From positions 1 through 31,178 of the IMG/VR virus record IMGVR_UViG_3300006638_000016: a DNA stretch of 31,178 nucleotides; one strand, 5' to 3'. The notes below the pieces were generated by a model, which ran no database searches, was not told the DNA's origin, and saw only the letters and a program-made list of their open reading frames with translations. Origin of the DNA: a virus. The translations under genes were made by a program, and so were the position numbers. Numbering within the stretch: position 1 is the stretch's first letter; each line of letters opens with the position of its first letter. This document shows, piece after piece, positions 1-29,100 of this stretch.

Positions 1-808
1 GAATAAGACGAACGTTCCTCAGATTAAGTTTACGCTCTGCCCGGCTAAAATCGAAAAATCTAAAGACTCGAGCTTTGATTACTGGATTGATTTTGAAACT
101 CAGTTTGCGAAAAAACGCATTCGAATCCCCGCGAAGTCTCACAAAAGATTGAATCATTTTCTACGCCAAGGCTGGGAGTTGAATCCCGCCTGTGAACTCG
201 TAAAGCAGAAAAATGGAAACTGGCAGGCGAGAATCTTTGTTCAGAAGGACGTCGCTAAAGCAGAACCTAGGGCCGAGTTCCTCGGCGTTGACGTAGGAAT
301 TACCCACTCCGTATCCCGCTCCGATGGATACTTAGGCGCCGGGCTTAGTAAAGTAATCAAACAATTTAGATTAAAGAACGCGGAGCGTCGTCGGCAAAGC
401 CACGAATATCCGACTCTAAAAACAAGTGTAAAACAGCGGTTAGATATTGAGGCCCGTAGAGCGGTTGCACGTTGCAAACGCGATGGGCTGAGTCTAGCCG
501 TTGAAAGCCCGAAACGACTGGCGAATTTGAGGAGTGGGAAACTCCAAGGGTGGGCTAGGTCGTACTTAGCAAATCGTGCCACATGCATCGCAGAAGAGGA
601 GGGTATCTGGGTTGATTACGTAAATCCAGCCTACTCATCTCAGACTTGCGCTTCATGTGGTAATCGCGATAGGCTGAGTCGAGTGAAATTGGTATTTAAA
701 TGTACCGCCTGCGGAAGCAGGACCCACGCGGACATCAACGCGGCGCGGGTGATAGCTCAAAGGGCCCGGAGTAATTCAGGCTCCGTTATCACACTTGTTG
801 TGGTATGA
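1..808 (+). CDS. tnpB: TnpB-type RNA-guided nuclease (IS200/IS605 OrfB family), 5' truncated by window edge
   Basis: The frame is open from base 2, so the gene starts left of the window and about 268 C-terminal residues are visible. The family comprises RNA-guided DNA nucleases encoded by IS200/IS605 and IS607 elements, ancestral to Cas12. Seen here: a basic beta-rich stretch, then the RuvC-like motifs LGVDVG (first Asp), LAVESP (Glu) and HADINAA (last Asp), with a four-Cys zinc ribbon CASCG...CTACG between the last two. All three acidic catalytic residues are present, so it is not an obviously dead, repressor-type derivative. A short inverted repeat, CGGAG/CTCCG (767-771 and 781-785), lies at the 3' end of the coding region. 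The next gene begins 13 nt after the stop, leaving no room for a normal element right end. No tnpA is seen. An internal TTG at 149 is only an apparent start. The family call is firm; activity is not known. Confidence 0.88.
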   Translation, partial: NKTNVPQIKFTLCPAKIEKSKDSSFDYWIDFETQFAKKRIRIPAKSHKRLNHFLRQGWELNPACELVKQKNGNWQARIFVQKDVAKAEPRAEFLGVDVGITHSVSRSDGYLGAGLSKVIKQFRLKNAERRRQSHEYPTLKTSVKQRLDIEARRAVARCKRDGLSLAVESPKRLANLRSGKLQGWARSYLANRATCIAEEEGIWVDYVNPAYSSQTCASCGNRDRLSRVKLVFKCTACGSRTHADINAARVIAQRARSNSGSVITLVVV

Positions 809-21626: not shown

Positions 21627-21754
21627 AAAATAAAAAGTTTTCTCTACTGAGTAGGGGAATCAGCCTCGGCGGTGACTTTATCGTTCAGGTCATCGCTGAG
21701 GTTTTAAAATTTAGAATTTGGTGTATCTTTAAATTTAACGAGGAGATTTTATGA
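21623..21754 (+). CDS. possible 43-residue peptide in fibre junction
   Basis: ATG 21623 overlaps the DUF2612 stop (ATGA), and the TGA at 21752-21754 overlaps the next start (ATG 21751), so the frame exactly fills the gap between two coupled genes. The peptide MKNKKFSLLSRGISLGGDFI... is basic and partly hydrophobic. No ribosome site of its own is seen, which fits translational coupling. The AT-rich 3' half also supplies the next gene's GAGGAG site, so the region may instead be just a spacer. Function unknown. Confidence 0.35.
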   Translation: MKNKKFSLLSRGISLGGDFIVQVIAEVLKFRIWCIFKFNEEIL

Positions 21755-22665
21755 CCGCAACGAATGATTTTTTACCATTTTGCCCGACTGATACGGGGAC
21801 CAATTTACTTTCTCAGGCCGACTATGCGGCGGACCCTCAGCTTGCAATCGGGAATCAAGCCGGTGTTGCAAGACTTGAGTTAGTCAACAAGGCACTCAGA
21901 CAGTCCACCTACATTGCGTCGTGTCTTTCTCAGTTCCTGGCCAATCAGACCGGGAATAACGTATTAGACGATGCGACTCCGAGCGAAGTCATCACGACGA
22001 TGAACACAGCTTTTAGATCCCACCCCACAGTTCAAAGATTTCTTAGTGGGAGCGGCACTTATACTAAGCCCGCAAATGTACTTTATTTACGCGTGCGCGC
22101 AGTGGGCGGAGGCGCTTCGGGCGGTAATTCTTCTGCCGCCACGGGGGGAGACGGACTTGCAGGCGGAGACACGACTTTCGGGACCTCTCTGCTCATTGCA
22201 GGGGGCGGATTGGGAGGCGGCGGCGGTAACTCTGGAATTTTAGGAGTCGGCGGAACGCCTACGGTCAATTCCCCAGCGATTGCTCTCGTTTCTCTTTCAG
22301 GCGGGACAGGCGGAGCCGGAACAACGAACTCCACGTCCGGTGTTGCAGGACCCGGGGGAATGGGAGCAAGTAGCTTCTTTGGTGGAGCGGGAAGCGGAAA
22401 CGCGGACGCTGTCGGCGGAGATGCCATTGTAAATTCTGGATCCGGTGGCGGAGGCGGTGGTTATAATCCCGCAGTTAGCAGTAATATTTATGGCGCTTCG
22501 GGCGGAGGTGCTGGAGCTTATATCGAGGCTCAAATTAATTCTCCTTCAGCCACTTATGCTTATTCCGTAGGCGCTGGCGGTTTAGCCAACTCGGGCGGGT
22601 CAGGGACTCTCGCCGGTGGCGCAGGCGGTTCTGGTTTCATCGAAGTCACTGAATATTATCAATAA
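21751..22665 (+). CDS. tail fibre/adhesin with glycine-rich domain
   Basis: A 304-residue protein with GAGGAG before ATG 21751. Residues 1-90 (FLPFCPTDTGTNLLSQADYAADPQLAIGNQAGVARLELVNKALRQSTYIASCLSQFLANQTG) form an N-terminal attachment region common in phage fibres. From about residue 110 the sequence is extremely Gly-rich with runs such as GGGGGNSG and SGGGGGGY, as in glycine-rich adhesins that pack polyglycine-II helices. Its C terminus GGSGFIEVTEYYQ is typical of that domain. Probable receptor-binding component, by position after the wedge genes. Confidence 0.8.
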   Translation: MTATNDFLPFCPTDTGTNLLSQADYAADPQLAIGNQAGVARLELVNKALRQSTYIASCLSQFLANQTGNNVLDDATPSEVITTMNTAFRSHPTVQRFLSGSGTYTKPANVLYLRVRAVGGGASGGNSSAATGGDGLAGGDTTFGTSLLIAGGGLGGGGGNSGILGVGGTPTVNSPAIALVSLSGGTGGAGTTNSTSGVAGPGGMGASSFFGGAGSGNADAVGGDAIVNSGSGGGGGGYNPAVSSNIYGASGGGAGAYIEAQINSPSATYAYSVGAGGLANSGGSGTLAGGAGGSGFIEVTEYYQ

Positions 22666-22676
22666 GGACTGTGTAA

Positions 22677-23075
22677 ATGAAAACTCGTAACCTAGGGATT
22701 GTCTTAGACCAGGGCACCGATTTTAGTCTCGTCATCGGGATCAACGGCGTCGATGGTCCGATTGATATCACGGGTTACGAGTTCAAGTCTCAGATGCGTG
22801 AGACGACGAGCCCCACGTCTCCCGTCGTGGCGGAGTTTATTTTCACGATCAGTGATCAGACGACCAACACGGGCCAAGTCGTGATGTCTCTTCCCGCAAC
22901 GAGCGACGAAGAGAGCGCGATTACGACCTCGGTTGCGACTCCTCTGAATGCTCTGAGACAGACGACCCCGTTTGTTTTTGACGTGAAGATGAAGGACACA
23001 TTGGGTGCGATTAGCCGAATCATTCAGGGTATTATTTACGTCTCGCCCGAAGCGACGCAGGAGCTCTATTCGTGA
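22677..23075 (+). CDS. fibre-associated structural protein, BppU-N-like pattern
   Basis: A 132-residue beta-rich protein; AAGGA precedes ATG 22677. The pattern DQGTDFSLVIGINGVDGPIDITGYEFKSQMRE...QVVMSLPATSDEE...FVFDVKMKDTLGAISRIIQGIIYVSPEATQ matches a widespread small phage domain that decorates fibres or baseplates. No enzymatic motif is present. It overlaps the next gene by 4 nt. Confidence 0.7.
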   Translation: MKTRNLGIVLDQGTDFSLVIGINGVDGPIDITGYEFKSQMRETTSPTSPVVAEFIFTISDQTTNTGQVVMSLPATSDEESAITTSVATPLNALRQTTPFVFDVKMKDTLGAISRIIQGIIYVSPEATQELYS

Positions 23076-23605
23076 GAGTTTTCCAACTCGACATCTGCGA
23101 TACGAGTCAAGAGGGCGTGACCGTCTTCAGTCTCGACTCACCGGATAATCCGCAGGCGAATCTTCAAGTTTTTAGTTTAGATTCGACGGACGCCGCGTGC
23201 GAGGTGAACGTCTTTAGTCTAGAGGACCCGGATTGCTGTAACGACGCGGATATTGAGATTTATATTCCTGGACCTCCCGGTCCACAAGGACCCGTAGGGC
23301 CTCAAGGCCCATCCGGTGCAAGTGGTTTGGTGTCTGTCATCTCGGCGAGCTCTTCGATCCCCATCGATCAATACTTCACGATTGTGAATGCTTCGGCACC
23401 TACGACTCAAACTCTTCCTCTCATCTCATCCGTTTTAATTGACAACATCACGAGTTCATTCACGGTCGTTAATTTGACCTCGCATAACGTCGCAATCATT
23501 GCCTCTGGGTCGGATGAAATTTTAGTAGGCTCGCCCGTCAACGAACCGTATCCGAATACCTCTTTTAGCTTTGTAGCCACACCACTGGGATGGGTGATCA
23601 TATGA
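23072..23605 (+). CDS. fibre protein with VFSLD repeats and a collagen-like segment
   Basis: A 177-residue protein starting at GTG 23072 (overlap GTGA). Residues 3-54 contain four tandem units, VFQLDICD, VFSLDSPD, VFSLDSTD and VFSLEDPD, spaced 14-15 residues apart. Residues 67-85 are collagen-like Gly-x-y triplets (GPPGPQGPVGPQGPSGASG). The C-terminal 90 residues are a beta-rich domain (FTIVNASAPTTQTLPLIS...NTSFSFVATPLGWVII). Trimeric collagen-like stalks are common in phage fibres. The N-terminal repeat may be the attachment region. Ends in an ATGA overlap. Confidence 0.72.
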   Translation: MRVFQLDICDTSQEGVTVFSLDSPDNPQANLQVFSLDSTDAACEVNVFSLEDPDCCNDADIEIYIPGPPGPQGPVGPQGPSGASGLVSVISASSSIPIDQYFTIVNASAPTTQTLPLISSVLIDNITSSFTVVNLTSHNVAIIASGSDEILVGSPVNEPYPNTSFSFVATPLGWVII

Positions 23606-24450
23606 TAAAATTTCTCTCTCTTCTTTTCATTTCGACGCAGAGCCTTGCGGCATTCTCACCGCAGACGGTGATTACGGACGCGGCAAGCGGTGCGACGGCG
23701 CACGTCGAATCGGATCAATCTTTAGACGTGACCGTCATCGGCGGCGTGTCTTCTACGGTGAACCAAGGCACGGCGGGATCTTCGCCCTGGCTCTTTGCTC
23801 TCCCCACGGGCGCGTCTTCGTCCTCTCTTCAGACGATCGGCAACGCATCTTTAGCTTCCATTTTAACCGCTTTGGGCTCACCCTTTCAGAGTGGCGGCTC
23901 TATTGCGAATACTGCTTTTGGTGTTAGTGGTACTCTTCCTGCTTTTGCTAGCACTCCTACCTTTAATCTTGGAACACTTAACGGAGCGGCGACGGCGTCA
24001 AACCAAGTCACCGCGCAAACGTCGCTCTCGTCGATCGACTCGAAGCTCACGTCCCCGCTCACGGTGACGGCGACGCAAGCAACCGCTGCGAATTTGAACG
24101 CAACTGTGGTTCAAGGAACGGGGACGAATCTTCACACGGTGGTGGATTCGGGTTCAGTCACCGTATCTTCGACAAAGGCTCCAATCAATTCCACGGGTTC
24201 AGGGACAGCGGGCACCGTGTCAACGGTGATCACTCTTTCTGCCCCATCGAATGCTGTTGGTTTTGTTTTGATGAACATGGACACCTCGACTGCAAACTTA
24301 AGGTGGGCCGTCGGAAGGACTGCAACCACCACGGTGGGGCAACAGCTTCAGCCGGGGAGATCTTCTGATTTTGTGAGCGTAGGAGCTGACGTCTCTTTGG
24401 TCGCCGAATCAGGGACTCAAAACTATGACATCCAATGGATCTCACAATGA
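23602..24450 (+). CDS. fibre-locus protein with predicted Sec signal peptide
   Basis: A 282-residue protein; ATG 23602 is chosen because it overlaps the previous stop as ATGA. The start MIKFLSLLFISTQSLAAFSPQ has a basic residue, a hydrophobic core and an Ala-x-Ala-like end, so it looks like a cleavable signal peptide. The body is low-complexity Ser, Thr, Ala and Gly-rich (VNQGTAGSSPWLF...), and the C terminus (APSNAVGFVLMNMDTSTANLRWAVGR...LVAESGTQNYDIQWISQ) is a beta sandwich seen in many phage appendage proteins. A virion protein with a Sec signal is unusual. Function unknown. Confidence 0.68.
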   Translation: MIKFLSLLFISTQSLAAFSPQTVITDAASGATAHVESDQSLDVTVIGGVSSTVNQGTAGSSPWLFALPTGASSSSLQTIGNASLASILTALGSPFQSGGSIANTAFGVSGTLPAFASTPTFNLGTLNGAATASNQVTAQTSLSSIDSKLTSPLTVTATQATAANLNATVVQGTGTNLHTVVDSGSVTVSSTKAPINSTGSGTAGTVSTVITLSAPSNAVGFVLMNMDTSTANLRWAVGRTATTTVGQQLQPGRSSDFVSVGADVSLVAESGTQNYDIQWISQ

Positions 24451-26951
24451 TGAAAACTAGAAGTTACTGCAGAAAGTTACTAGAAGTTATTGCAGTATTC
24501 ACGTTTTGTGTTTCAGCTCAGGCGGGTTTGCCTCCCACCACGTCAAAGGACAGCGCTGACTCAGCTAACGTCGTCACGTTTAATTACCAATTCCCTAATT
24601 TTACGGGCTCGCACACCGGCCCGACTTTTAGCTTAGGAATTAATAGCATTGCAGGCGGAGGGACTGGACAGGCGACTCAGCAATTAGCTATCAATGCGCT
24701 GACTGGCACGCAAACTTCGGGATACTATTTAAGATCGGACGGCACGAACGCAACGCTCTCTCAGCTTTTAGCGTCCGACATGTCCGGTCTTTTTTATCAA
24801 ACGATTCAATCTAACACCGCTGCTCAAACCCAGGAGCCTGCTCTCAACTTTTCTACCAACTACACGCTGACCACGACCGCTTCGACTTCGACCAACGTGG
24901 ATCTTGCAACCTCGATTACGACGAATAACGTCACCGCAAGAACGGTTGCGGGAACTCTCGTTCTTGCGGGCGCAGCGGCTTCTAGTTCAGGGACAGGCGG
25001 CGGCGCAACATTGGAGAGTGCGGCAGGGGCTGGCGGTAGTGCTTCCGGGACCACGAGCATTTTAGGTGCGGCAGGAACGGCGGGCGGTGGCGGAGGACCG
25101 ATCGTCATCACCGCAGGAACGAGCGCGAATAGCACGGGCTCAGCAATCACGATTACCACGGGCGCGGATACGCAAACCGGCAACGGAACGCAGACCGGAA
25201 CGCTCACGCTGAAAGCTGCAAATGGGCAGTCGATTTCGACGACGACCGCAAGCGGGACTTTGGGCGGACCAATAAACATCACGGGTGGAACCGGAGGAAA
25301 CGTCACGGGCACCGGGTCAACTGTGGCGGGCGCTGGAACAACGATTACGATTGCACCGGGCGCGGGGGGCAACTCCTCGGGCGCAGCCACCACGGGACAT
25401 GGGGGCGCAGGCGGAGCGATCAGTTTAAACGCAGCAAATGGAGGCACGGCGACTACTGCAACCACGACCATAGCGGGAGCGGGCGGAGCATGGTCCGGTG
25501 TGGCTGGCAATGCAGGAACTGCAACGACGACGGGCGCTGCTGGAGGTGGATGGACAGGTGCGGCAGGAAATAGCTCTAATGCAATCGCAGGAGGAACGGC
25601 AGCTCTTTCTGGTGGTGTGGGCGGCGGAACAGGAGCTGGTGGGCCTCTTAATCTCACTGCGGGCGCGGGTGGAAGTACCTCAGGAAATGGGGGCGCAGCG
25701 ACACTGGGTGGTGGCGCATCCACGAGTGGAACAGGCGGAGCGGCGAATATTAATGGTGGGGCTTCTTCTGCAGGCGCAGGTGGATCGATTACCCTCACCG
25801 GCGGGAACGCCGCTGGCATCAGCAACGCGGGTGGAAACGTCAACATTAATGGTGGTAACTCCAATTCTTATAACGGCGGAAACGTCAACATTACCGGCGG
25901 CCTTCCTGCGAACACGACTTCCGTCAGTGCCACAGCGGGCGCGGTCACCATCACGTCGGGTGGCGGAGGGGCGGGTGGTGCCCTAAATAACTCAGGCACC
26001 GTCACGGTAACAACCGGAGTTCCTACTGTTTCAGGGAACTCCGGGGCAGTAACTATTTCAACCAATGCCGGAGGCAATACGACCTCAGCAAGTTTTAATC
26101 CTGTCTCAGGCGCAATCAATCTCACCACAGGAGCGGGCGGGAATAATTCTGCAGCAACCTCTACAGCCGGCGCTGCTGGAACCATTGTTGTTACAGGTGG
26201 AAATGGGGGTGTGGCCAGCGCTACTACAGGCACCAATGTCAGCGGCGCGGGCGGCGGGATGACCGTGAATTTAGGAGCCGGTGGAATTCCCTCTGGTGCA
26301 GCTACGCAGAACACAGGTGGGGCCGGCGGTGCTTTTGTCGTGTCTGCGGGGGCAGGCGCAACGCCCACTGCTGGAACTACGAAGATAGGTGGAGCTGGTG
26401 GCGCAATTTTTCTAACCTCTGGTGCCGGAGCATTGGGTGCAGCAGGGGGTGCTATGACCCTCGTCTCTGGGGCAGGCGGTGCAACGGGAACCTCTGGACC
26501 GATCTTTATTTCTACAGGCGCAGCGGGCACGGTGGGGTCTTCGATTACTTTGAAAGGTTCGAATATCGCGGTTACTAACGTAGCGGATATTATTTCGAAT
26601 ACGTCCGTAACGAGAACCAACGGATTTATTCATTCGTTTCGAAATGGTGGAACGCAAAAGCTGGGGATTGATTTTAATGGGAAGATCAATGTCCCCACTG
26701 GCGGTACGGCGGACACCATGGGTCGAGCTGTTTTGGTTTTAGGAACGGTGACCGTATCGACCACGGCAGTCGATGCGAACAGTATTATTTTACTGACCAA
26801 TTGCGCTCTCGGGGGGACATCATTAGGATTGCCCACGGTAGGAACGGTAACGGCAGGAACGTCGTTCGTGATCAACTCGGAAATTGCGGGAGCATCTCCC
26901 GTCGTTAATACTTTAGATACGTCAACGATTTGCTGGCAGATTGCCAACTAA
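24447..26951 (+). CDS. large glycine-rich tail fibre with predicted signal peptide
   Basis: An 834-residue protein; ATG 24447 gives an ATGA overlap. Residues 1-26 (MMKTRSYCRKLLEVIAVFTFCVSAQA) look like a signal peptide ending in AQA. The GGTGQAT motif near residue 75 is typical of phage fibres. Residues about 180-700 are Gly/Ala/Thr/Ser-rich imperfect repeats of the form GGxIxLTxGxGG, compatible with a beta-solenoid or polyglycine stack. The C-terminal knob (AVLVLGTVTVSTTAVDANSIILLTNCALGGTSLG...TAGTSFVINSEIAGASPVVNTLDTSTICWQI) matches a widespread fibre-tip domain. Probable main host-binding fibre. Confidence 0.8.
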   Translation: MMKTRSYCRKLLEVIAVFTFCVSAQAGLPPTTSKDSADSANVVTFNYQFPNFTGSHTGPTFSLGINSIAGGGTGQATQQLAINALTGTQTSGYYLRSDGTNATLSQLLASDMSGLFYQTIQSNTAAQTQEPALNFSTNYTLTTTASTSTNVDLATSITTNNVTARTVAGTLVLAGAAASSSGTGGGATLESAAGAGGSASGTTSILGAAGTAGGGGGPIVITAGTSANSTGSAITITTGADTQTGNGTQTGTLTLKAANGQSISTTTASGTLGGPINITGGTGGNVTGTGSTVAGAGTTITIAPGAGGNSSGAATTGHGGAGGAISLNAANGGTATTATTTIAGAGGAWSGVAGNAGTATTTGAAGGGWTGAAGNSSNAIAGGTAALSGGVGGGTGAGGPLNLTAGAGGSTSGNGGAATLGGGASTSGTGGAANINGGASSAGAGGSITLTGGNAAGISNAGGNVNINGGNSNSYNGGNVNITGGLPANTTSVSATAGAVTITSGGGGAGGALNNSGTVTVTTGVPTVSGNSGAVTISTNAGGNTTSASFNPVSGAINLTTGAGGNNSAATSTAGAAGTIVVTGGNGGVASATTGTNVSGAGGGMTVNLGAGGIPSGAATQNTGGAGGAFVVSAGAGATPTAGTTKIGGAGGAIFLTSGAGALGAAGGAMTLVSGAGGATGTSGPIFISTGAAGTVGSSITLKGSNIAVTNVADIISNTSVTRTNGFIHSFRNGGTQKLGIDFNGKINVPTGGTADTMGRAVLVLGTVTVSTTAVDANSIILLTNCALGGTSLGLPTVGTVTAGTSFVINSEIAGASPVVNTLDTSTICWQIAN

Positions 26952-27241: not shown

Positions 27242-27487
27242 ATGTCATCAAAAATTGACGAAAAAACAGAAGTACCTCTTGGGCTCGTGGCGAGCCTCTT
27301 TGTTTTAGGGATGGGAGTGACCGCGACCGGCGCGTTTTGGGTTTCTCGTGTGGATAATCGCTTAGCCCGGATTGAAGACAAGTTAGGAATTATTCAACTC
27401 CCGCAGGTGAAAAAATTAGAGCGGCACGAAGACGAATTAGCAAAACGAGAGAGGAGCATCTATGGACTTAAAATTGACACGGACTAG
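27242..27487 (+). CDS. small membrane protein, holin candidate
   Basis: An 81-residue protein starting at ATG 27242. One transmembrane segment (VPLGLVASLFVLGMGVTATGAFWV, residues about 11-34) is followed by a charged coiled-coil-like tail (RVDNRLARIEDKLGIIQLPQVKKLERHEDELAKRERS). This is the size and layout of class III-type holins or small lysis membrane proteins. It overlaps the DUF5675 gene by 26 nt. Lysis function is inferred from position. The ribosome site is weak (a GGGGGG run 10-15 bases upstream). Confidence 0.55.
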   Translation: MSSKIDEKTEVPLGLVASLFVLGMGVTATGAFWVSRVDNRLARIEDKLGIIQLPQVKKLERHEDELAKRERSIYGLKIDTD

Positions 27488-27866
27488 TTTCGAGATGTCA
27501 GGCATCTATGGCCAGATCACCCGCCCCGATGGCTCTCTTTTTTGCGTCACTCTCGAGCACAGCTATCCAGGCGGGACGGGGCCGATTATCTATGCGCCCA
27601 AAATTCCACCGGGGCAGTACGTCTGTAAACGAGGGATGCACCTCCTCGAAGGACACTCGATCCCCTTTGAGACGTTCGAAATTACAAACGTACCGGGGCA
27701 TACGAACTGCCTCGTGCACGTCGGGAACGTCGGAGACGACTCGAGCGGTTGCGTTTTAGTCGGTGCGTCTCGTTTAAATAACATGATCGTTCAGAGCCGA
27801 ATTACATTCGATGCGTTCATGCAGTTACAAACAGGAGTTGGCGAGTTTAAATTAGAGGTGGTTTGA
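27462..27866 (+). CDS. DUF5675 family protein, possible cell-wall enzyme
   Basis: A 134-residue protein with GAGGAG before ATG 27462. The opening KLTRTSFEMSGIYGQITRPDGSLFCVTLEHSYPGG and the core LVHVGNVGDDSSGCVLVG (residues 84-101, with His86, Asp92, Asp93, Gly96 and Cys97) match DUF5675, a family common in phage lysis regions. The HxGN...D..GC pattern resembles the active-site loop of L,D-transpeptidase-like folds. Wall binding or cleavage is an inference from the fold pattern and neighbours; no other endolysin is seen in this window. Confidence 0.72.
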   Translation: MDLKLTRTSFEMSGIYGQITRPDGSLFCVTLEHSYPGGTGPIIYAPKIPPGQYVCKRGMHLLEGHSIPFETFEITNVPGHTNCLVHVGNVGDDSSGCVLVGASRLNNMIVQSRITFDAFMQLQTGVGEFKLEVV

Positions 27867-28376: not shown

Positions 28377-28769
28377 ATGTCAAACGATCCAAAACCTCCT
28401 ACTACCGAAAACCAACTGGCCGATGAGATCAACACGGCGATCGATAATCTTTCGAACCTAGGGATCTCCGTGGTGGAGGGCATGATGATTGCGGATCAAC
28501 CGTGGCTTGGGTTTCCCGGAATTAAACAAGCCTGGGAGCTTTTATTCGGCTGGGTTGCGGGTTACTTTATTAGGGCCGCACAAAACGGAGTGACGTTTGC
28601 CGTCATCGACGCACAGGTGGGACACGAAGAATCCAACATGTCCACCGCGCTTGCAAACCTTGTTGCGGCAGAAAAAACAGGGGACCCCGATGCGATTCAC
28701 CAAGCGATTCTCGACTATGCATCCGCCCAAAGTGCGCTCACGAGGGATGATGGCTCGAGCCTTCATTAG
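28377..28769 (+). CDS. hypothetical lysis-region protein
   Basis: A 130-residue protein; ATG 28377 is chosen because the reading MSNDPKPPTTENQLADEINTAIDNL looks like real coding sequence, though its ribosome site is poor and covered by the hairpin just upstream. Alternatives are GTG 28326 inside the hairpin loop and ATG 28485 after GGAGGG. The middle WLGFPGIKQAWELLFGWVAGYFIRAAQNGVTFAVIDAQ has one hydrophobic or amphipathic segment; the rest is helical with KTGDPDAIHQAILDYASAQ. Similar small proteins occur in phage lysis regions without known function. Confidence 0.6.
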   Translation: MSNDPKPPTTENQLADEINTAIDNLSNLGISVVEGMMIADQPWLGFPGIKQAWELLFGWVAGYFIRAAQNGVTFAVIDAQVGHEESNMSTALANLVAAEKTGDPDAIHQAILDYASAQSALTRDDGSSLH

Positions 28770-29100
28770 TTTTCTCCTCATTTTCTTACTCCAGGGATGC
28801 GCAACCGCAATCGTTGATTACGAGTTCTGCTCTCCTCTTCCCGGTGGACTAGGTAGCATTTGTGATCACTTTCTCACGGCGCATCAAGAGATTTTAACCG
28901 AAGAGCAGTGGGTTGCGCTTCAAGCACAGTGGCTCTCTCAGGGGCAGGCGACCGAGTGCACGACCGCAAACGCGCTGGGGGATCTTAAAAAAGAGATCGA
29001 AGAGCTTTGCTCTAAGACGCGCTGCAGTTATGAGGCGGTTCAAATCATTACATCGGGATTAAATAAGATTCAGAATTTAGGCAAAGCTGCTGTACCCTAA
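28750..29100 (+). CDS. small lipoprotein, outer-membrane spanin candidate
   Basis: A 116-residue protein starting at ATG 28750 (ATG 28747 is an equal alternative), overlapping the previous gene by about 20 nt. The N terminus MARAFISFLLIFLLQGCATA is a lipoprotein signal with lipobox LLQGC and lipidation Cys17. The mature part has five more Cys residues (FCSPL, SICDH, TECTT, ELCSK and TRCSY) and a helical stretch LTEEQWVALQAQWLSQ. Spanin lipoproteins occur in this place in Gram-negative phages, but no partner inner-membrane spanin is evident and the protein is longer than typical Rz1, so the role is tentative. Confidence 0.65.
   Translation: MARAFISFLLIFLLQGCATAIVDYEFCSPLPGGLGSICDHFLTAHQEILTEEQWVALQAQWLSQGQATECTTANALGDLKKEIEELCSKTRCSYEAVQIITSGLNKIQNLGKAAVP

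Follow-up and report, generated by a model that had tools for sequence, protein, structure and literature searches.

Predicted Sec-exported fibre-like proteins in the fibre locus of an uncultured tailed phage

The 31,178-base virus record IMGVR_UViG_3300006638_000016, analysed over its whole length and called the window below, contains genes for terminase, portal, DUF3383 and baseplate J, a set that by its sequence is a module of the contractile-tail type, followed by a fibre locus. Two adjacent genes of this locus, both on the + strand, encode the fibre-like proteins SP1 (23602..24450, 282 amino acids) and SP2 (24447..26951, 834 amino acids), which begin with predicted signal peptides and, judging from what is conserved in their relatives, are very probably truly exported. 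The original prediction of Sec-type leaders on two adjacent fibre-locus proteins was confirmed for both, although the interval that it quoted ends inside SP2, which runs to position 26951. Leader-bearing fibre-locus proteins appear to recur as a class across uncultured phages.

Predicted signal peptides of SP1 and SP2

In SP1, the leader (residues 1-16, MIKFLSLLFISTQSLA, 23602..23649, + strand) is followed by a repeat body and a C-terminal jelly-roll-like module (residues ~201-280), and the cut is predicted before AFSPQ. SP2 is made up of a leader (MMKTRSYCRKLLEVIAVFTFCVSAQA, 24447..24524, + strand) with a predicted cut before GLPPTTSK, a conserved mature N-terminal domain, a Gly/Thr/Ala-rich body and a C-terminal tip (residues 757-832, 26715..26945, + strand) that matches the Pfam family K1-lyase_C (PF24146, E 2e-15). 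Both ATG codons lie in a 4-nt overlap (ATGA), with the stop codon of the upstream gene in the case of SP1 and with SP1 in the case of SP2, and the start codons, hence the leaders, are therefore well fixed. Overlaps of this kind fix the starts in 6 of 10 adjacent pairs, and a Shine-Dalgarno-like sequence is found at several of the other starts.

Leaders were scored by a simple home-made rule, written before use, that looks for a charged n-region, a 9-residue hydrophobic core and small residues at positions -3/-1. The rule passes 10 of 11 secretory leaders used as controls and is conservative, as it misses genuine-looking cases such as the SP2 of locus L026, which has an Asp at the end of its leader. 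Three of the 38 window genes passed, namely SP1 (score 4.38), SP2 (score 5.87) and the gene of an Rz1-like lipoprotein at ~28741. The SP2 score was reached by 1 of 20000 shuffles of the first 35 residues, and a chance origin of this leader was rejected. The positive n-region, hydrophobic core and small -3/-1 residues of a substrate of Sec and signal peptidase I are present in both proteins, more weakly in SP1. The Cys at +1 that defines a lipoprotein is absent, this position being Gly in all 11 SP2 sequences compared.

Among proteins of at least 250 amino acids in 12 phage records or loci, 15 of 122 passed the rule and all 15 were fibre-locus proteins, either of the SP1 or SP2 type or, in L047, a third leader-bearing protein beside SP2. 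When the limit was lowered to 80 amino acids, 32 of 374 proteins passed in the 11 records other than the window, many of the additional ones being small and lipoprotein-like. The third long protein of L047 (1-1697, - strand), with a predicted cut before GWIQNEDV, has no Pfam or PHROG match. A leader-bearing protein of 160 amino acids directly follows SP2 in G008 (L054, 14321-14803, - strand), and several long leader-bearing proteins are clustered in one phage locus in L008 (5149-10371) and in L009 (3098-8835).

The predicted SP2 cleavage site and the SP1-type partner in related phages

An alignment-based scan of viral contigs for SP2 gave 12 loci, two of which (L033 and L035) are contigs already seen and three of which (L028, L030 and L032) are nearly one phage. 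Eleven distinct SP2 sequences, that of the window included, were aligned (alignment A3). Their leaders vary in sequence and length, yet all 11 stop exactly at the invariant GLPPTTSK. Position -1 is Ala in 10 sequences and Gly in one, position -3 is Ala in seven, Ser in two, Thr in one and Cys in one, and position -2 is free, with six different residues, some of them large. The mature N-terminal domain (24525..24675, + strand; GLPPTTSKxSxDxxNVxTFNYQFPNFTGxHTG...), probably a docking domain, thus has its eight invariant residues right after the predicted cut. An independent DNA pattern scan for the GLPPTTSK motif, in which no leader was required, gave 19 stretches, of which 12 lie in SP2 homologues, with a leader ending at the motif in 12 of 12, one in an unrelated long open reading frame (L067) and six in chance or unrelated frames. 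For SP1, the leader is conserved in the homologues L002, L005 and L057, and the mature start [AS][FY]SP[QS]T is common to SP1, L002 and L005. Relatives had been named in the original prediction as the place to look for the same leader, and it was found there for both proteins.

Past the ~45 conserved residues, the SP2 proteins diverge widely and their tips differ: the window SP2 has K1-lyase_C, three proteins have a Gly-rich tip and several have tips of tail-fibre PHROGs. Matches to tail-fibre families among the 12 SP2 proteins were to phrog_863 in four, to phrog_6202 in one and to Gly_rich_2 in three. PF24146 was the sole match of the window SP2 among the Pfam and PHROG tail-fibre families, and no match of SP2 was found in named phages. 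SP1 matched none of these families, and in the search of named phages SP1 and two leader-bearing relatives each had at most one weak, repeat-level match.

The C-terminal module of SP1 (profile A7, 24181..24447, + strand) is present in 10 of 11 SP2-bearing phages, nine times directly upstream of SP2, a co-occurrence that is partly due to selection, as the loci were mostly picked via SP2. In G007 the A7 and SP2 genes are far apart and both have been kept; this non-adjacent pair appears to be the best single evidence for an association of the SP1 module with SP2. The module also lies directly upstream of SP2 in L039, a contig of a bacterial metagenome-assembled genome (MAG). Its ~85 residues are confidently predicted to form a small beta domain, with a predicted local distance difference test score (pLDDT) > 90 in the AlphaFold2 model. 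Foldseek found no match in the PDB at E <= 0.001, and the best VIA-align hit (Z 8.8) was to cupin or jelly-roll chains, a common arrangement. Small modules resembling it occur in uncultured phages, according to a viral structure library, and a PDB sequence search was empty.

The body repeats of SP1 reach 24 loci of quite different phages, with a leader in 14 of the 24 (13 of 22 when two apparent duplicates are removed). A second leader-bearing fibre-like family was also noticed, the mature start of which lies at or next to the cut and reads DTPPPGTVKAK (L131 and L134) or DTPPPNTVKAK (L143); L101 likewise has DTPPP.

Cysteine content, relation to virion fibres and origin

Proteins that fold in the periplasm tend toward paired cysteines. 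In a first sample, from which the near-duplicate L032 was dropped, the mature cysteine count was even, odd or zero in 20, 4 and 2 of 26 leader-bearing fibre-like proteins, compared to 55, 53 and 28 of 136 leaderless controls from the same records (Fisher p 0.003 for parity). Among relatives with the same repeats, cysteines per 100 residues ranged from 0 to 1.66 with a leader and from 0 to 0.66 without (p 0.0006). The prediction was then recorded in advance and tested on fresh loci found via the body repeats of two other proteins. This sample held 84 loci, with the best 80 of 401 taken from the second repeat scan and three contigs of the first sample left out, and gave 65 complete proteins (19 cut-off ones were skipped), 49 of them distinct. 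Even, odd and zero counts were 8, 2 and 1 in 11 proteins with a leader and 9, 13 and 16 in 38 without (parity Fisher p 0.046), the latter including L138, a probable leader protein that the rule scored as leaderless. The median density was 0.75 with a leader and 0.19 without (p 0.0004), and all p values of both samples are optimistic because the rows are partly homologous.

These results also bear on whether the hydrophobic N-terminus might stay uncleaved, either as a membrane or virion anchor or because the protein folds in the cytoplasm too fast for export. Sec is evaded by some strongly folding proteins, and in the AlphaFold models residues 2-13 of SP1 and 3-19 of SP2 form a helix. Conservation, however, falls on -3/-1 and on +1 to +8 and not on the hydrophobic core, and cysteine counts are elevated and even in the leader-bearing proteins. 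We hold an uncleaved N-terminus to be very improbable, and the retained anchor that the original prediction had offered is disfavoured on both grounds, as cleavage-site conservation and the change of cysteine content and parity with the leader point the same way.

Pieces of tip and body are shared between the leader-bearing proteins and virion proteins, so that both seem to draw their receptor-binding parts from one common pool. In the window, the leaderless virion-type tail fibre (21751..22665, + strand; phrog_11303, E 1.5e-25) has a Gly-rich tip that aligns with the tip of the leader-bearing L031 SP2 (60% over 43 amino acids, E 9e-11), and the leaderless L002 fibre is similar to the tip region of the SP2 of L037 (29% over 104 amino acids, E 2.5e-6). 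Residues 130-203 of the L029 SP2, a stretch of 74 amino acids of its body, recur in a leaderless, structural-looking protein of 1000 amino acids in the L031 phage (11125-14127; 61%, E 5e-9). A separate leaderless fibre exists in the window, in L002 and in L005.

In the window, the tail fibre is followed by a leaderless L-shaped-fibre-assembly-like protein (phrog_1084; 22677..23075, + strand), a leaderless collagen-like protein coupled to SP1 (23072..23605, + strand), SP1, SP2 and lysis-gene lookalikes. The collagen-like protein has a short repeat, GPPGPQGPVGPQGPSG, and a similar short stretch is present in neighbours of the L002 and L005 genes. The Rz1-like lipoprotein (28741..29100, + strand), with the lipobox LLQGC and a weak match to phrog_456 (E 0.041), implies by its sequence a host with an outer membrane, to which it is the sole pointer. 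The product of 27462-27866 belongs to DUF5675 (PF18925, E 6.9e-17), and L002, L026 and L046 have lookalike proteins close to their lysis genes. The left edge of the window (2-808) holds a truncated transposon-type open reading frame with a Cas12f1-like TNB domain (PF07282, E 1.3e-17), followed by ParB-like and cytosine methylase genes. PADLOC models gave no anti-phage defence match for five window proteins, and a scan for promoters and terminators gave a signal no better than in shuffled sequences.

Twelve viral contigs contain the SP2 domain, as does one bacterial contig, L039, which comes from a Deltaproteobacteria MAG and itself carries terminase-like fragments. The domain was found in none of 57 other genomes of the phylum of this MAG, and the base composition of the SP1/SP2 region resembles that of the rest of the phage, all of which speaks against the host-derived origin raised in the original prediction. 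The closest relatives by TerL and baseplate proteins are mostly phages of Proteobacteria, with ~60% identity at most among the matches listed. The G002 portal and the L031 capsid had no match in a search of 50,697 phage records. A search of 56 genomes from the phylum of the MAG was also empty, but it had no positive control and is therefore uninformative.

SP1 and SP2 might nevertheless be captured host surface adhesins, similar to the mosaic adhesive trimer (MAT) proteins of Bdellovibrio, that change how the infected or lysogenic host adheres. The only genome match is the Deltaproteobacteria MAG contig, in a phylum in which 9 of 54 genomes have S74 fibres and 2 of 4 S74 loci read contain a leader-bearing protein. 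By eye, we take the N-termini of these two proteins to be MAT-like, and a host that itself exports fibres is conceivable. MAT proteins are themselves exported phage-like fibres (PMC10769870). This reading is improbable in view of the 57 genomes without the domain and the terminase-like fragments on the MAG contig, and a BLASTP comparison of the SP2 N-terminus with one MAT-like N-terminus gave no hit.

A possible role outside the virion and comparison with known systems

The possibility raised in the original prediction that the infected cell displays or releases the proteins fits the sequences best. In its full form, which we regard as plausible but as falling somewhat short of probable, SP1 and SP2 would be a Sec-exported fibre pair that folds in the periplasm and, once freed at lysis, serves as a receptor-binding adhesin or decoy without being part of the virion. 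Both would be made late in infection from the fibre operon by coupled translation, as substrates of Sec and signal peptidase I, and the leader would be removed, with SP2 cut before GLPPTTSK. The mature chains would fold in a fibre-like manner in the oxidising periplasm, where the cysteines of SP2 and of most leader-bearing relatives could pair. The conserved mature N-terminal domain of SP2 would dock, probably on the SP1-type C-terminal module, and the variable C-terminal tip, which is of the tail-fibre kind, would bind a surface receptor. Once freed by spanin-driven lysis or another surface route, the pair might mask receptors on debris and neighbouring cells and so reduce superinfection or wasteful re-adsorption. 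Translation from the leader ATG, the conserved leaders and cleavage site, the cysteine pattern of the class, the locus, the sharing of tips and the conserved mature N-terminus are the parts to which the sequences speak; docking, a trimer, the timing, the freeing of the pair at lysis and a decoy role outside the virion with its effect are our inferences. We favour a non-virion adhesin or decoy, since a protein exported by Sec is taken away from where particles are assembled and since a further fibre is present in the window, L002 and L005.

The main rival, and a serious one, is a virion fibre assembled across two compartments. SP2, with or without SP1, would be exported, oxidised in the periplasm and joined to virions after holins or spanins have broken the inner membrane, with attachment through the conserved SP2 mature N-terminus and the SP1-type module, so that the virion would be completed outside the cytoplasm. 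A conserved docking-like N-terminus with a variable tip is the usual plan of a fibre, the SP1 module is co-retained even when non-adjacent, and in most other relatives it is leaderless and so possibly virion-borne. Nor did any other G002 or G003 protein among those tested match a tail-fibre family. Against this stand the separate leaderless fibre of the window, L002 and L005, in which SP1 bears a leader, and the leaderless protein of 352-367 amino acids in G002 and G003, which may be the fibre of these phages; moreover, no tailed-phage precedent is known for such a fibre. Attachment to the virion after export is less probable than a role outside it, and we judge it rather unlikely.

Several observations weigh against the extra-virion adhesin or decoy, or against export of the pair as such. 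The SP1 score was reached by 269 of 20000 shuffles (~1.3%) of the first 35 residues, a frequency at which chance is not rejected; by itself the SP1 leader is only suggestive, and it gains weight because L002, L005 and L057 keep it. A leader is present on the SP1-type partner in the window, L002 and G007, is doubtful in L034 and is missing from the upstream protein in L026, L027, L028, L029, L031, L037 and L038, so that an exported partner is not general. In addition to its optimistic p values, the cysteine test speaks for the leader-bearing class more than for the pair in the window, since the mature chain of SP1 has no cysteine and that of SP2 only two. The AlphaFold model of SP2 is too poor for a test of its fold (pLDDT 40). 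Among the 12 SP2 proteins, no Pfam match to the C-terminal membrane anchor of type V trimeric autotransporters was found, and there is no outer-membrane anchor or lipobox by which surface display could be explained. In the podovirus-like G002 and G003, finally, no leaderless protein scanned matched a tail-fibre family, which favours a virion role. The original premise that export would remove the proteins from the virion is therefore unproven, as late attachment would be possible.

Textbook accounts treat the fibres of tailed phages as parts of the virion made in the cytoplasm. The class described here would mean either a common and overlooked extra-virion phage product, serving in receptor masking or adhesion, or a fibre whose maturation takes place outside the cytoplasm, and either outcome alters the annotation and use of receptor-binding proteins in uncultured phages. 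A broader conjecture, for which the chances seem low, is that many uncultured tailed phages build part of their receptor-binding apparatus in two compartments, as cytoplasmic particles and Sec-exported disulphide fibres that come together, or compete for receptors, no earlier than lysis. If so, cytoplasm-only assembly would not be universal for tailed-phage fibres.

Llp and Cor, the superinfection-exclusion lipoproteins of phages, are envelope proteins that block receptors; they are small and have a lipobox, whereas SP1 and SP2 are long, fibre-like and without one. The likeness to the Klebsiella K1 lyase C-terminal domain is restricted to the SP2 tip, and a lyase domain was not detected in SP2. 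Phages of Porphyromonas gingivalis encode Sec substrates adapted to the host signal peptidase, but in the accessible part of that report the five highlighted genes have no known function and are not described as fibre-locus fibres (PMC10367356). PblB of Streptococcus phages is a tail protein that acts as an adhesin outside the virion, and its pneumococcal form is reported to have a putative signal peptide; likened by its description in the available text, it differs in having Gram-positive hosts, in its release in S. mitis by phage-induced permeabilisation and in the lack of a conserved leader family (PMC4508584). The MAT proteins of Bdellovibrio, bacterially encoded exported phage-like fibres, share with SP2 the tail-fibre likeness, the signal peptide, a conserved N-terminal domain right after it and variable C-terminal tips; they are encoded by chromosomal bacterial genes and have an N-terminal beta domain of ~130 amino acids and an S74 end in 13 of 21 (PMC10769870), whereas SP2 is encoded in a phage fibre locus and has a GLPPTTSK domain of ~45 amino acids and S74 in 0 of 12. 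Conserved Sec leaders on the fibres of tailed phages were not found described in the open-access literature, a scope that excludes subscription papers and makes for a weak negative. The nearest precedents are thus the Bdellovibrio MAT fibres and pneumococcal phage PblB, neither of which is the SP2 family. What appears to be new here is a set of phage fibres from a fibre locus, probably exported by Sec, in which a probable docking sequence directly after the cut is conserved; they would be the equivalent, among phages, of the exported fibres that predatory bacteria possess.

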